Positions 457 through 54,129 of a stretch of 64,000 nucleotides of DNA are shown here, in pieces. The notes under the pieces were generated by a model. That model was given only the letters and a program-made list of their open reading frames with translations. It did not search any database and was not told the DNA's origin. Both the position numbers and the translations under genes were made by a program. This DNA comes from Porphyromonas sp. (GTDB lineage: Bacteria; Bacteroidota; Bacteroidia; Bacteroidales; Porphyromonadaceae), in assembly GCA_030532365.1 (NCBI GenBank), contig JAUNLH010000001.1:1-64000 (forward strand), written 5' to 3'. Positions within the stretch are counted from its first letter, which is position 1; the number at the start of each line of letters is the position of its first letter.

Positions 457-583
457 ACGACATCCGACCTTCGTCGGAGTCGTGAGGGTTGTCAGACGAA
501 TGCCAATCCAGGGTGGCGCAACGCCCTTTTAGGGCATTGCTTACCCTTCGCTAGGGCATGCAACCCCGACTTCCGTCGGGGTT
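457..583 (-). repeat. Three-hairpin repeat element, copy I (reverse)
   Basis: Stem 1 (457-482) pairs ACGACaTCCGAC with GTCGGAGTCGT. The middle structure has outer arms AGGGT (510-514) and ACCCT (543-547) enclosing GCCCT/AGGGC (523-527 with 531-535). Stem 3 pairs AACCCCGAC (562-570) with GTCGGGGTT (575-583). The conserved core CTTACCCTTCGCTAGG spans 540-555. It matches copies II-IV in architecture and lies in the opposite orientation to II and IV. Confidence 0.85.
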
Positions 584-687
584 GTTTCGTCTCGTGATCG
601 GTGCAAGGGTACATGTAGTCGCGGTGTGCGCTATGACCCAATCAGGGGCGAACTCAACAAAAATAGGGGTTGTTTCGTCTCGTGATC
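581..687 (+). repeat. Direct repeat pair of at least 19 bp
   Basis: GTTGTTTCGTCTCGTGATC occurs at 581-599 and again at 669-687, 88 bp apart, each preceded by GGG. The DNA between them shows no gene. It looks like a local duplication inside the repeat-rich block. Confidence 0.75.
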
Positions 688-733
688 AGTATAAGGGAGC
701 ATTGGGTTGCGATGTGTCCAATACCTCTATTCG

Positions 734-865
734 GGGGATATCCCGACGGATGTCGGAGTTACCACATTCATACACGGACAATGAACGGGCGACCGTATCG
801 GGGCAACCCCAACGGATGTCGGAATTACCGCATTCATACGCGGGCAATGGACGGGCGACCGCATC
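734..865 (+). repeat. 66-bp tandem repeat, two copies
   Basis: Unit 1 is 734-799 and unit 2 is 800-865. Both begin GGGG and share ACGGATGTCGGA, TTACC, CATTCATAC, GGGCGACCG and ATCGGGG with a few substitutions. A third start (GGGG at 866) runs straight into stem 3 of three-hairpin copy II, so the tandem array appears to derive from that element's end. Confidence 0.8.
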
Positions 866-869
866 GGGG

Positions 870-985
870 CGATCCCGACCTTCGTCGGGATCGAAGAGCC
901 TAGCGAAGGGTAAGAGGCGAAGCCTCGCCACCCTGGTACGAACGAAGCCACACCCTTCCTCGACTCCGACGCACGTCGGATGTCG
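870..985 (+). repeat. Three-hairpin repeat element, copy II (forward)
   Basis: Stem 3 is CGATCCCGAC/GTCGGGATCG at 870-893. The core GCCTAGCGAAGGGTAAG spans 898-914. The inner stem is GAGGC/GCCTC (914-918 with 922-926) inside AGGGT (907-911)/ACCCT (930-934). Stem 1 is CGACTCCGAC/GTCGGATGTCG at 961-985. The inner stem sequence differs from copies I, III and IV but still pairs. Confidence 0.85.
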
Positions 986-1060
986 CACCCCTACAGATAT
1001 TGTCTGGGTGAAACATGTGCCATAATTCAACCTCAACGACGTACCCACTGGGGTAGTGGT

Positions 1061-1188
1061 ACGACTCCAACATGCGTTGGAGTCGTATTGCTCTGGAGGA
1101 TCACGTGGTACCAGGGTGGCGCGCCACCTCTACCGAGGTGACGCTTACCCTTCGCTAGGTCATTCGATCCCGCCAGGTGGCGGGATCG
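1061..1188 (-). repeat. Three-hairpin repeat element, copy III (reverse)
   Basis: Stem 1 is a perfect 11-bp hairpin (ACGACTCCAAC at 1061-1071 with GTTGGAGTCGT at 1076-1086). The inner stem is CACCTC/GAGGTG (1125-1130 with 1135-1140) inside AGGGT (1113-1117)/ACCCT (1147-1151). Stem 3 is CGATCCCGCC/GGCGGGATCG at 1165-1188. Relative to the other copies both sides of stems 1 and 3 are changed (CCAAC/GTTGG and CCGCC/GGCGG), so pairing is kept. Confidence 0.85.
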
Positions 1189-1363
1189 CCACACCCCACA
1201 CTCATCATCGGGATATAACGCACGCACACATTACAACATAATACCACCAATGGTCGTCCTTCCCCCACCGCAACCAAACTCGACACAGGACATACACAAC
1301 ACGCGACACCAACACGAACAACCCCGACAACGATGGGTATCGGACGTTACACCACGATACAAA

Positions 1364-1478
1364 CAACCCCGACCTGCGTCGGGGTTGAAGAGCCTAGCGA
1401 AGGGTAAGCCCCGCAGGGGCGTCACCCTGGTACCAAAGGTCGCAGCCCCATCTCGATTCCGACGAAGGTCGGATGTCG
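1364..1478 (+). repeat. Three-hairpin repeat element, copy IV (forward)
   Basis: Stem 3 is CAACCCCGAC/GTCGGGGTTG at 1364-1387. The core GCCTAGCGAAGGGTAAG spans 1392-1408. The inner stem is GCCCC/GGGGC at 1408-1420 inside AGGGT (1401-1405)/ACCCT (1424-1428). Stem 1 is CGAtTCCGAC/GTCGGATGTCG at 1454-1478. It is the last of four copies that alternate in orientation (-,+,-,+). Confidence 0.85.
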
Positions 1479-6392: not shown

Positions 6393-10059
<3,667 letters not shown>

Positions 10060-10170
10060 AGTCAAGCTCCGAACTCAGAAATTTTAAGTTGGGAACTTAG
10101 ACGCATCGAAGTTCCCAACTTAGATACATTTTAGTTCCGGTTTCCGATCGGTCTAAGTTCCGATCTCTCA
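10060..10170 (+). repeat. 23-bp-period palindromic repeat element, copy C
   Basis: Units start at 10060, 10083, 10106, 10129 and 10152. Unit 2 has the GGG centre (TTTAAGTTGGGAACTTAGA) and unit 3 the CCC centre. The linker before unit 4 is TACA rather than CAAC, a subtype shared with copy D. It lies between the lacZ promoter side and the end of the Fur gene. Confidence 0.88.
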
Positions 10171-10244
10171 TTTGCAGATGTTTCGGTGTATCAATTATAC
10201 AACATACAATTGAAGATTTGTGACAACACTATTTTCGACATCGT

Positions 10245-10343
10245 ACGACATCCGACCTGCGTTGGAGTCGAGATTGGGCTCCTCAGGATCTTATACCAGG
10301 GTGGCGCACCGCGACCCACTCCACATCTTCGTGTGGTGGGTTG
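10245..10343 (-). repeat. Three-hairpin repeat element, copy V (internally deleted)
   Basis: Stem 1 ACGACaTCCGAC/GTtGGAGTCG (10245-10270) and the CCAGGGTGGCGC block (10296-10307) match copies I and III. The inner hairpin and the CTTACCCTTCGCTAGG core are missing. A new stem 3 (10312-10343, CCACA/TGTGG plus ACCCA/TGGGT with a 2-nt bulge) still pairs. It sits 75 bp after copy C of the other family. Confidence 0.75.
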
Positions 10344-20083: not shown

Positions 20084-20173
20084 CTAACCTCCTACCTAGG
20101 TCACAAGGAGCTACTATTGACACAAGAGAGTGGTTCCGAAGTTGTAAAAAAGAGTCTTCCGATGCTTAGCAAA

Positions 20174-20284
20174 TCGGAGATCCGAAGTTAGGTCGATCGG
20201 AGACCGGAACTAAAATGTATCGAAGTTGGGAACTTAGACGCATCGAAGTTGGGAACTTAGAAATTCTAAGTTCGGAGGTCCGCC
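20174..20284 (-). repeat. 23-bp-period palindromic repeat element, copy D (reverse)
   Basis: Units at 20174, 20197, 20220, 20243 and 20266, read on the minus strand. Two adjacent units TCGAAGTTGGGAACTTAGA at 20220 and 20243 are identical. The linker TACA (minus strand) groups it with copy C. It is the only copy clearly in reverse orientation and lies inside the glycan locus. Confidence 0.88.
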
Positions 20285-20287
20285 GTT

Positions 20288-20380
20288 ACCACCTTAAGAC
20301 TCCGCACTGGCAGAGGTATCAGGAGACAATGACATTTCCCCCATATATCGGGGGTCGCTCGATACGAGGTGGTTGTTTTT
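20288..20380 (+). ncRNA. Nested-stem structure with T-tract upstream of the GH92 gene
   Basis: Three nested perfect stems are visible: ACCACCT (20288-20294)/AGGTGGT (20367-20373), GTATC (20316-20320)/GATAC (20361-20365) and CCCCC (20338-20342)/GGGGG (20350-20354). TTGTTTTT follows at 20373-20380. The susD terminator already lies 200 bp upstream, so this may be the end of a small RNA or an attenuator. No promoter for it was identified. Confidence 0.4.
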
Positions 20381-27860: not shown

Positions 27861-29969
27861 ATGAAGACAAAGAAAGCACTCCTGCTGCTCTTGACCCTGC
27901 TCATAGCAGCACCGGTAGTACATGCCGATAAGGGCATGTATCTCATTGCAGCACTCCGCCAGGAAAATATGGATCGGATGAAAGAGCTAGGGCTCAAGCT
28001 CGATGCCGACGACCTGTATAACCCCAATGGTGATGCCCTCTCGGATGCCGTCGTCATCTTTGGCAATGGATGTACAGGTATCACTGTCTCTCAGGAGGGA
28101 CTCATCTTCACCAACCACCACTGCGGCTACGGGTCGATCCAAAAGCTAAGTAGTGTAGAGCATGACTACCTGAGAGATGGCTTCGTATCGCACCAGAAGA
28201 GCGAAGAGCTACCCGTCCCAGGGCTTTCTGTGCGCTACCTCAGGGAGTTTGTAGATGTCACCGCACAGGTACTAGCCTCGGTGGCAGACATGCACGACGC
28301 CGATCCTATGGCGCGGTACAGAGCGATCCAGGAGACCATGGAGCAGATAGCTAAGCCTTATGCAGAGATGGACCACACCGAGGCGGATGTCTATCCTTTT
28401 TATGAGAATAACGCCTACTTCCTAGTGATTTATGACGTCTTCACCGACGTCCGCCTTGCCTTTGCACCGCCCACATCTCTCGGTAAGTTTGGTGCCGACA
28501 CCGACAATTGGATGTGGCCACGCCATACCAACGACTTCTCAGTCTTCCGTGTCTATGCCGACGCGAACAATAAGCCGGCCGACTACTCTGCCAACAATAA
28601 GCCCTACAAGCCGCGCTATGTCGCCAAGGTCTCTACAAGCGGGGTCAAGGAGGGTGACTACTCCATGACCATCGGCTTCCCTGGCTCTACAGACCGCTAC
28701 CTCAGCTCTTGGGGTGTGATCAACCGTATGGAAAACCAAAATGAGCCACGTATCTTGGTCCGCGGTATCAAGCAAGAGATCTGGCAGCAGCACATGCAGG
28801 CCGACCAAGCCACACGCATACAGTACGCTTCTAAGTATGCAGGTAGCTCCAACTACTGGAAAAACTCCATAGGCATGAACCGAGGTCTCCGCAAGCTCAA
28901 TGTGGTAGGCAAGAAGCAAGAGATCGAGAGACAGTTTGCCGAGTGGGTGGCACAAGATCCTGCTCGCCAAGCGAAGTACGGTGCAGTCCTATCCCGACTA
29001 GAGTCGAGCCTAAAGGCAAGTGGACCACTTGAGCACGACGCAATGATCCTCACCGAGGCACTCAATGGCATCGAGCTAAGACCTCTCACTGCCATGCCAT
29101 CGTCAGACATCGACGCCTTTGATGCAGAGGTACTCTACAAAGACTTCAGCCCAGAGGTGGCAAAAGCGACACTACCGGCTATGCTGCGCGTGGTGAAGGA
29201 GCATGTAGCACCCGAACACCTGCCCGACATCTACACCGAGATCGACGAGAAGTTTGCAGGCAACTACGAGCGCTATGCAGAGTATGTGTACAACAATTCG
29301 GTCGTCGTACAGAAGCACCGGATCCTCGAAGCACTCAAGAACTACAAGACCTTTAGCGCTGCACACGACAGCGATCCCGCGGTGATCCTAGTCCGTAGCT
29401 TCCAGAAGAGGATCGGAGAGATCTGGCAAAAGGCAAATGGCTATACCTTCGACTACTACGATGCACGCAGGCTCTTCTTTGCCGGACTTCAAGAGATGTC
29501 ACCCACTTATCTCCCGAGCGATGCTAATTTCACAATGCGCCTCAGCTACGGTAGTGTAGGGGGTTACAAGCCCTTTGACGCTGCATGGTACGACTACTAT
29601 ACCACAGAAGACGGTATCCTAGAGAAGCAAGACCCGACCTCACACGAGTTCACCGTACAGCCCGAGATACTCAAGATGCTGAGGGATAAAGACTTCGGAG
29701 ACTACGCCGACGAAGATGGCAAGCTACACATCTGCTTCATCTCCAACAACGACATCACTGGTGGCAACTCAGGCAGCCCGGTATTCAATGGCGATGGCAA
29801 CCTGATCGGACTCGCCTTCGACGGCAACTGGGAGGCAATGAGTGGCGACATTGAGTTTGAGCCCAACCTCCAGCGCTGTATCAACGTAGACATACGTGCC
29901 GTGCTCTGGGCGATCCACAACTGGGGCAAGGCCGACAACCTCATCGACGAGTTGACACTCGTACCCTAA
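27861..29969 (+). CDS. S46-family dipeptidyl-peptidase (DPP7-like)
   Basis: A 702-residue periplasmic serine peptidase that removes dipeptides from peptide N-termini, a key nutrient step in asaccharolytic Porphyromonas relatives. A signal peptide (ends VVHADK, about residue 22) is present. The chymotrypsin-like site shows TNHHCG (residues 84-89) and catalytic Ser637 in TGGNSGSPV. The residue 18 after the catalytic Ser is Gly (FDGNW), the position described as Gly in DPP7 (hydrophobic P1) and Arg in DPP11 (acidic P1). DPP7-like specificity is therefore favoured, by alignment from memory. It has its own promoter and terminator. Confidence 0.93.
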   Translation: MKTKKALLLLLTLLIAAPVVHADKGMYLIAALRQENMDRMKELGLKLDADDLYNPNGDALSDAVVIFGNGCTGITVSQEGLIFTNHHCGYGSIQKLSSVEHDYLRDGFVSHQKSEELPVPGLSVRYLREFVDVTAQVLASVADMHDADPMARYRAIQETMEQIAKPYAEMDHTEADVYPFYENNAYFLVIYDVFTDVRLAFAPPTSLGKFGADTDNWMWPRHTNDFSVFRVYADANNKPADYSANNKPYKPRYVAKVSTSGVKEGDYSMTIGFPGSTDRYLSSWGVINRMENQNEPRILVRGIKQEIWQQHMQADQATRIQYASKYAGSSNYWKNSIGMNRGLRKLNVVGKKQEIERQFAEWVAQDPARQAKYGAVLSRLESSLKASGPLEHDAMILTEALNGIELRPLTAMPSSDIDAFDAEVLYKDFSPEVAKATLPAMLRVVKEHVAPEHLPDIYTEIDEKFAGNYERYAEYVYNNSVVVQKHRILEALKNYKTFSAAHDSDPAVILVRSFQKRIGEIWQKANGYTFDYYDARRLFFAGLQEMSPTYLPSDANFTMRLSYGSVGGYKPFDAAWYDYYTTEDGILEKQDPTSHEFTVQPEILKMLRDKDFGDYADEDGKLHICFISNNDITGGNSGSPVFNGDGNLIGLAFDGNWEAMSGDIEFEPNLQRCINVDIRAVLWAIHNWGKADNLIDELTLVP

Positions 29970-29993
29970 GAGGTTGATACAACCTAAACCCCG

Positions 29994-30030
29994 GAGCCCC
30001 GTACCTAGCGACCCTAGGCACGGGGCTCTC
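29994..30030 (+). terminator. Terminator of the S46 peptidase gene
   Basis: GAGCCCCGT (29994-30002) pairs with ACGGGGCTC (30020-30028), with an inner CCTAG/CTAGG stem, 25 bp after the stop codon; TCTTATTT follows. Confidence 0.8.
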
Positions 30031-30036
30031 TTATTT

Positions 30037-30061
30037 CGATTCCGACGGAGGTCGGACGTCG
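30037..30061 (+). repeat. Solo stem 1 of the three-hairpin family (copy VI)
   Basis: CGAtTCCGAC-GGAG-GTCGGACGTCG followed by CACCCC matches stem 1 of copies II and IV, alone, without the core or other stems. It sits 28 bp before copy E of the 23-bp-period family. Confidence 0.65.
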
Positions 30062-30088
30062 CACCCCACTAGACCTAGAGTAGGTAGA

Positions 30089-30199
30089 AGCTAAGCTCCG
30101 AACTTAAAAATTCTAAGTTCCCAACTTAGATGTATCGAAGTTCCCAACTTAGACAACTCTAAGTTCCCAACTCAGATTTTCCGAAGTTCCCATCTCCAA
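30089..30199 (+). repeat. 23-bp-period palindromic repeat element, copy E
   Basis: Units at 30089, 30112, 30135, 30158 and 30181. Unit 2 is the perfect core TCTAAGTTCCCAACTTAGA. Linkers are TGTA, CAAC and TTTT. It closely matches copies F and H and can serve as the consensus. Confidence 0.9.
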
Positions 30200-36912: not shown

Positions 36913-37023
36913 GCGAAGCTCCGGAACTTAAAAAATCTAAGTTCCCAACTTAGATGTATCGAAGTTCCCAACTTAGACAACTCTAAGTTCCCAACTCCGA
37001 TTAGCCGAAGTTCCGATCTTGGA
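36913..37023 (+). repeat. 23-bp-period palindromic repeat element, copy F
   Basis: Units at 36913, 36936, 36959, 36982 and 37005. Linkers TGTA and CAAC match copy E. Unit 2 is the perfect core. A T-rich tail (GGATTTTTCC) follows. It lies between the pepD terminator and the small winged-helix gene. Confidence 0.9.
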
Positions 37024-37233
37024 TTTTTCCGGGTTGCGATACACCACTTATACAAGCTCGCACATCCCAAATATATAAAGCGCAAACAGAGCGCACTTCA
37101 TATACAAGTCTCAGCCTCTTCCGATGACTTCGCAGGGGCTTCCTTATGGCAGAGACGTTATTTTTTGGTAAAATTGTGGTACTTAAGGGTTACACCTTGA
37201 GATGAACAATACTTTAAGAAAAAGATTGAAGTT
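37024..37233. other. Upstream region of the small winged-helix gene
   Basis: No gene seen. A possible weak promoter (TACACCTTG, about 37191) lies ahead of the ATG, but it does not fit TAnnTTTG well. Confidence 0.4.
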
Positions 37234-45371: not shown

Positions 45372-45482
45372 ATCGGAGCCCCGAACTAAAAAAATCTAAG
45401 TTCCCAACTTAGATCTGTCGAAGTTCCGGTCTTAGATGCACCGAAGTTGGGAACTTAGATTTTTTTAGTTCGGAACTCCCAC
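45372..45482. repeat. 23-bp-period palindromic repeat element, copy G, with 36-bp inverted ends
   Basis: Units at 45372, 45395, 45418, 45441 and 45464. Unit 2 has the CCC centre and unit 4 the GGG centre. The left end (45375-45410) and right end (45444-45479) form a near-perfect 36-bp inverted repeat, so the copy is almost fully symmetric around unit 3 (TCGAAGTTCCGGTCTTAGA). It lies between divergent genes. Confidence 0.88.
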
Positions 45483-54003: not shown

Positions 54004-54114
54004 AGGGGAGACCCGAACTTAAAAAATCTAAGTTCCCAACTTAGATCTACCGAAGTTCCCAACTTAGACAACTCTAAGTTCCCAACTCGGATTTTCCGAA
54101 GTTCCGGTCTCGAT
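54004..54114 (+). repeat. 23-bp-period palindromic repeat element, copy H
   Basis: Units at 54004, 54027, 54050, 54073 and 54096. Unit 2 is the perfect core TCTAAGTTCCCAACTTAGA; linkers TCTA, CAAC and TTTT. A T-rich tail CGATTTTTCTT follows. It lies between pgk and the 3' end of the TamA-like gene, both leftward. Confidence 0.9.
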
Positions 54115-54129
54115 TTTTCTTGCAATGAA

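Follow-up and report, generated by a model that had tools for sequence, protein, structure and literature searches.

Compound three-hairpin repeats of a Porphyromonas genome are probable REP-type partners of subclass 1.2 Y1 transposases

The stretch of Porphyromonas sp. DNA analyzed here (64 kb, hereafter the window) holds four copies of a folded DNA repeat of 121-133 bp, each carrying three hairpins. We consider it highly probable that these repeats are non-autonomous, compound three-hairpin elements of the REP type, and that a HuH/Y1 transposase of the subclass 1.2 type processes them, or once did so, as single-stranded DNA. A DNA hairpin recognized by a Y1 protein had been one of two roles proposed for the repeats in a preliminary description of the window, and it is backed by related genomes, in which Y1 genes in single or low copy lie among like units and an N-TAG motif is conserved.

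Each unit consists of hairpin hp1, about 10 nt, a CTAG tetranucleotide, hairpin hp2, about 30 nt and hairpin hp3. As previously described, the four units of the window alternate in orientation: unit 1 lies at 455-587 on the minus strand, unit 2 at 867-988 on the plus strand, unit 3 at 1059-1191 on the minus strand and unit 4 at 1361-1481 on the plus strand, with covariance-model matches of 133.1, 122.4, 121.6 and 115.5 bits respectively, supplemented by the alignment for unit 1. Units 1 and 4 belong to a subtype B, whose hp1 stem reads AACCCC/GGGGTT, and units 2 and 3 to a subtype A, with GATCCC/GGGATC. On the minus strand, alignment pairs and folds place the hairpins of unit 1 at 458-482 (hp3), 510-547 (hp2) and 561-584 (hp1), and those of unit 3 at 1060-1087 (hp3, where a compensated change has put an A-T pair in place of the G-C pair of most copies), 1113-1151 (hp2) and 1165-1188 (hp1). 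On the plus strand, hp1, hp2 and hp3 occupy 870-893, 907-934 and 961-985 in unit 2 and 1364-1387, 1401-1428 and 1454-1478 in unit 4. The CTAG foot 5' of hp2 was read from the sequence of unit 1 (551-554, minus strand) and, from the conservation of NTAG across species, assigned at 900-903 (plus) in unit 2, 1155-1158 (minus) in unit 3 and 1394-1397 (plus) in unit 4. Minimum free energy folds of the copies at 867-988 and 1361-1481 favor other pairings around hp2, so that hp2 in these two copies rests on the alignment. This REP-like hairpin combines an AGGGT/ACCCT lower stem, invariant across the four window copies as had been stated, with a variable inner stem, for which the sequences given earlier (GCCCT/AGGGC, GAGGC/GCCTC, CACCTC/GAGGTG and GCCCC/GGGGC) are correct. 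The core that had been called constant is so in part: the 17-mer GCCTAGCGAAGGGTAAG is exact in two copies and differs by its first base in the two others. The interval between units 1 and 2 (660-866) contains a 66-bp sequence in two imperfect direct copies (734-799 and 800-865), which bear additional CCGAC...GTCGG hairpins.

The window comes from a contig of a 1.69-Mb draft genome in 61 contigs, 90% complete (G000), in which the core pattern was matched 49 times at up to two mismatches, compared to once for a reversed control. The covariance model detected 51 clear units in 26 clusters, that is about 50 copies of 120-135 bases arranged in inverted pairs, in keeping with the many dispersed copies, often inverted dimers, that characterize REPs. 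As many of these copies sit at contig ends, the draft probably undercounts them. Placement outside genes was judged roughly and in the window only, where the next clear gene spans 1912-2400. The repeat sequence itself appears to be species-specific, with only its architecture common to relatives. An exact core-plus-stem match, retrieved from only one contig (Armatimonadetes) in a search of genome contigs, was judged to be due to chance, and the same pattern had no match in viral contigs. The neighboring Lrp-like protein of the relatives is 51-56% identical, and the orthologous flanks are too diverged for an empty-site comparison.

Stem changes on both sides had been taken as a sign that folding matters, and they are indeed in excess in a larger alignment of 42 complete G000 copies with 37 stem pairs: 120 double-change cells were counted, compared to 35.6 ± 8.6 after shuffling, and none of 500 shuffles reached this value. 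The covariation score was 0.201, compared to 0.086 ± 0.005 in the shuffles, and the signal collapsed when the partner was slid by 1-3 columns. Paired stem cells amount to 96.6%, a figure favored by a structure drawn from the same sequences, which does not apply to the comparison of double changes with shuffles. Double-sided changes affect 15 of the 37 pairs and, as earlier proposed, involve both outer stems as well as the inner stem of hp2 (six pairs in hp1, eight in the hp2 inner stem and one in hp3). The shuffles leave the kinship of the copies in place, and the two commonest hp1 changes, present in 20 copies each, correspond to the split between subtypes A and B; the best evidence is provided by the hp2 inner stem, where as many as four kinds of pair occur at a single position. 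The AGGGT/ACCCT arm does not covary within G000, where it is either conserved or broken, and does so across species: the lower stem of hp2 is replaced entirely from one species to another with pairing kept (39 double-change cells compared to 12.0 ± 2.5). Together, folds and pair counts describe the long hairpin, with internal bulge allowed, that is typical of REPs, and the structure of the repeat is under selection.

Outside the stems, the motif retained from one species to another is the N-TAG foot, as expected of REPs. In 28 aligned units from seven species and two genera it stands directly 5' of the bulged hairpin hp2, with T in 26 of 28 units and both A and G in all 28; the preceding base varies (C in 13 units, G in six, T in five and A in four), and exact GTAG is found in units of the relatives G005, G012 and G035. 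The published rules for REPs call for a GT[AG]G tetranucleotide 0-2 nt 5' of the hairpin, whereas the CTAG foot of G000 stands 3 nt from the first pair of the AGGGT stem. Because the foot rule holds only partly, we have not filed these repeats as plain REPs.

The link to Y1 proteins emerged from related genomes. A covariance model built on the G000 copies alone (R1) detected a diverged family in other members of the genus, with 88 matches in G011, six in G005 and a single one in G006; the eight remaining genomes gave no match. Y1 transposase genes (Y1_Tnp, PF01797) were found in the genus in G011, G005, G006 and G001 only. R1 thus matched three of the four Y1-bearing relatives and not one of the seven that lack the gene (hand-calculated Fisher p of about 0.02), and in G001 weaker R1 matches appeared around one Y1 gene when that locus was searched alone. 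Nine clear Y1 genes occur in the family, and units adjoin all eight whose flanks were read. The Y1 gene of G011 (L050, 648-1076) is preceded by a unit and followed by an inverted one, that of G005 lies between two inverted units, and units stand beside one Y1 gene of G001 (C72) and both of G006, as well as, in a second genus, beside the two of G012 and that of G035. Near the second Y1 gene of G001 (C54), units were placed by R2, a model built from several species. Most of the relatives' units fold into hp1, then NTAG followed by a bulged hp2, then hp3. R2 matched 12 of the 38 family genomes, including all seven that are Y1-positive, and none of the 26 genomes without R2 matches has a Y1 gene; as R2 was trained on six of these seven genomes, this co-occurrence is biased and not independent, and for the co-occurrence claim we rely on R1. 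The Y1 gene of G028 has diverged further; the hairpins near it resemble the units more loosely, and this genome has only three weak matches. In that region (L088, 1240-2350) the gene is surrounded by highly regular repeats, which have the stem CCCAGGGT...ACCCTGGG with GTAG within the hairpin and may represent a fourth type of the system.

Outside the family, the one Y1 gene of a Persicobacter plasmid (Cytophagales) has a three-hairpin unit on either side, the two being inverted and having TTAG and ATAG as their feet (fold z of -3.1 and -5.4), and the same record bears the unit at nine places. A cognate Y1 gene flanked by repeats, as in REP systems, is present in G001, G005, G006, G011, G012, G035 and Persicobacter, and was not found in the G000 draft. 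In the flanks of the Bernardetia Y1 gene we saw repeated hairpins upstream and no clear three-hairpin unit; several copies of the hairpin AGTTGCAGAGCAACG lie there on a plasmid (L104, 1280-1454).

The six Y1 proteins that were aligned are 142-154 aa long and share invariant DHxH, WQ and Y---Q--HH motifs, the third residue of the HuH motif being V, I, L or M. Three of four were assigned by NCBIfam to IS200/IS605 above cut-off, and the score for REP-associated transposases remained below cut-off. Their genes are present in one or two copies per genome, and Persicobacter and Bernardetia are Bacteroidota. TnpA_Y1 proteins of subclass 1.2 have been described with DH[IV]H, WQ and Y---Q--HH motifs, about 148 aa and low copy number in Bacteroidota and Cyanobacteria (PMC6006769). 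As judged from sequence, the relatives' proteins match this subclass in motifs, size, copy number and phylum. The subclass was published as the sister group of IS200 transposases and said to be devoid of IS ends and of REPs ("no" for REP in Table 1 of PMC6006769), whereas REP-like units flank the genes described here. The enzyme of the subclass 1.2 type probably has these repeats as its substrate.

Searches of the 90% complete draft of G000 revealed no Y1 gene, the best remnant match having an E-value of 0.19. We infer that G000 has lost the gene or that the gene falls in an assembly gap. Units with no detected Y1 gene also occur in G010, G033, G036 and G037, the last of which is near complete and carries 26 units. 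The cases of G037 and G000 indicate that the repeats can persist without the gene, and G037 offers an orphan population suited to the study of decay after loss of the enzyme.

The other role envisaged in the preliminary description was that of a structured RNA, the repeats being transcribed and acting as small RNAs, stabilizers of mRNA ends or processing sites. Stem covariation suits an RNA as well as single-stranded DNA, and G.T cells outnumber A.C cells on the modelled strand (31 compared to 11), but this excess stems mostly from two inherited changes. With their inverted pairing, the copies lie on both strands and no single strand carries them all; no Rfam family reached threshold, a relaxed search returning weak and unrelated names, and promoter-like matches were not above those of shuffled sequences. 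Since an RNA role would also leave the link to Y1 genes unexplained, we regard this proposal as unsupported and unlikely. Orphan populations such as those of G000 and G037 might instead point to palindromes that serve the host as BIMEs do, by binding gyrase or nucleoid proteins or as terminators, any mobility being past, and in units 1 and 4 hp1 and the T-rich bases after it do score as terminator-like. Nevertheless, the terminator-like count was at chance (three, compared to 1.5 ± 1.5 expected) and the flanking of Y1 genes would go unexplained. A host function in place of REP-type processing is thus very improbable, although it is compatible with it as a secondary role.

If the repeats are REP-type elements, hp2, with its internal loop and 5' N-TAG, would be the binding and guide structure of the enzyme, by analogy with the GTAG-tagged hairpin for TnpA_REP, and hp1 and hp3, which flank it, would complete the unit. 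The Y1 protein would bind and cut hp2, and its activity may have mobilized and spread the copies. In REP, BIME or REPIN systems with RAYT (TnpA_REP) partners, for instance in E. coli, a long bulged hairpin likewise has a tetranucleotide at its 5' foot and occurs in many copies, different subtypes join as inverted dimers (Y and Z in E. coli), and the Y1 gene, or each of a few, has units on its flanks (REPtron). The present units differ in measuring 98-135 bases with two extra hairpins, compared to 20-65 bases, in their NTAG rather than GTAG foot and in a Y1 protein of the subclass 1.2 type and not of class 2. GTAG-tagged palindromic repeats (PMC3733652) also form dimers with the tag inside or outside, with a preference for heterodimers, and have bulged stems with compensatory variants; that survey places GTAG families in Proteobacteria, Cyanobacteria, Chloroflexi and the PVC group, with none listed for Bacteroidetes, and no three-hairpin unit appears in its accessible part.

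The two subtypes combine with great regularity. All 15 facing inverted pairs of G000 join one A and one B unit (counted by hand, one unit being typed by eye). A scripted count over all pairs within clusters gave 30 consistent and four contrary pairs, the latter because the four-unit cluster of the window is made of two heterodimers back to back. In G011, where subtypes were defined by the hp2 stem and differ in sequence from those of G000, all 24 adjacent inverted pairs are A/B; in these counts, pairs within one array are not fully independent. Being complementary but different, the partners of a heterodimer are unable to make up one long perfect palindrome, and the copies probably owe their stability to this. 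A preference for heterodimers has been reported, unexplained, for other REPs (PMC3733652), and a strict rule in two species with unrelated stems makes it testable. We find it evenly balanced whether subclass 1.2 enzymes are general partners, across Bacteroidota, of a distinct compound REP with three hairpins, an N-TAG guide and obligate A/B heterodimers, which would represent a separate REP domestication near the IS200 branch. REPs with their RAYTs belong to a small number of mobile systems of domesticated appearance; a REP-like family beside subclass 1.2 genes would fill a gap in the account of how a Y1 enzyme turns from an IS transposase into a genome-resident REP partner, and provide a defined substrate to test.

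The organized element is larger than first described, as palindrome arrays with a 23-bp period extend beyond hp3 at both ends: a AAGTTGGGAACTT-type array lies just outside hp3 of unit 1 (299-404) and a AAGTTCCCAACTT array just outside hp3 of unit 4 (1552-1657). In many G000 copies, AAGTTCCCAACTT palindromes lie 29, 50-51 or 71-75 nt past hp3, and such arrays occur within 300 nt of 22 of 41 3' sides, compared to four of 41 5' sides. In this species, the composite thus seems to include them as an outer module. BrickBuilt, a MITE of P. gingivalis (PMC4596501), resembles them in genus, abundance and 23-nt period, but was rejected as their source on account of its unrelated 23-nt sequence (AGAYCATARTATCCTCTCRTRTG); its terminal repeats match IS5-family elements. 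That an ordinary DDE transposase mobilizes the repeats as a MITE family, the inverted dimers acting as terminal inverted repeats, would suit the roughly palindromic composite with arrays at its outer ends and the MITEs known in P. gingivalis, but is hardly credible given that units are found in either polarity and also as tandem copies, that the folding of each unit covaries, that the linked gene in relatives encodes a Y1 protein and that the arrays differ from BrickBuilt. Elsewhere in the window, AAGTTCCCAACTT arrays of about 100 bp occur without complete units at 10034-10167, 20171-20316, 30094-30189, 36917-37026, 45372-45478 and 54013-54116, and weak unit remnants adjoin two of these lone arrays, at 10243-10343 on the minus strand and 29933-30064 on the plus strand.
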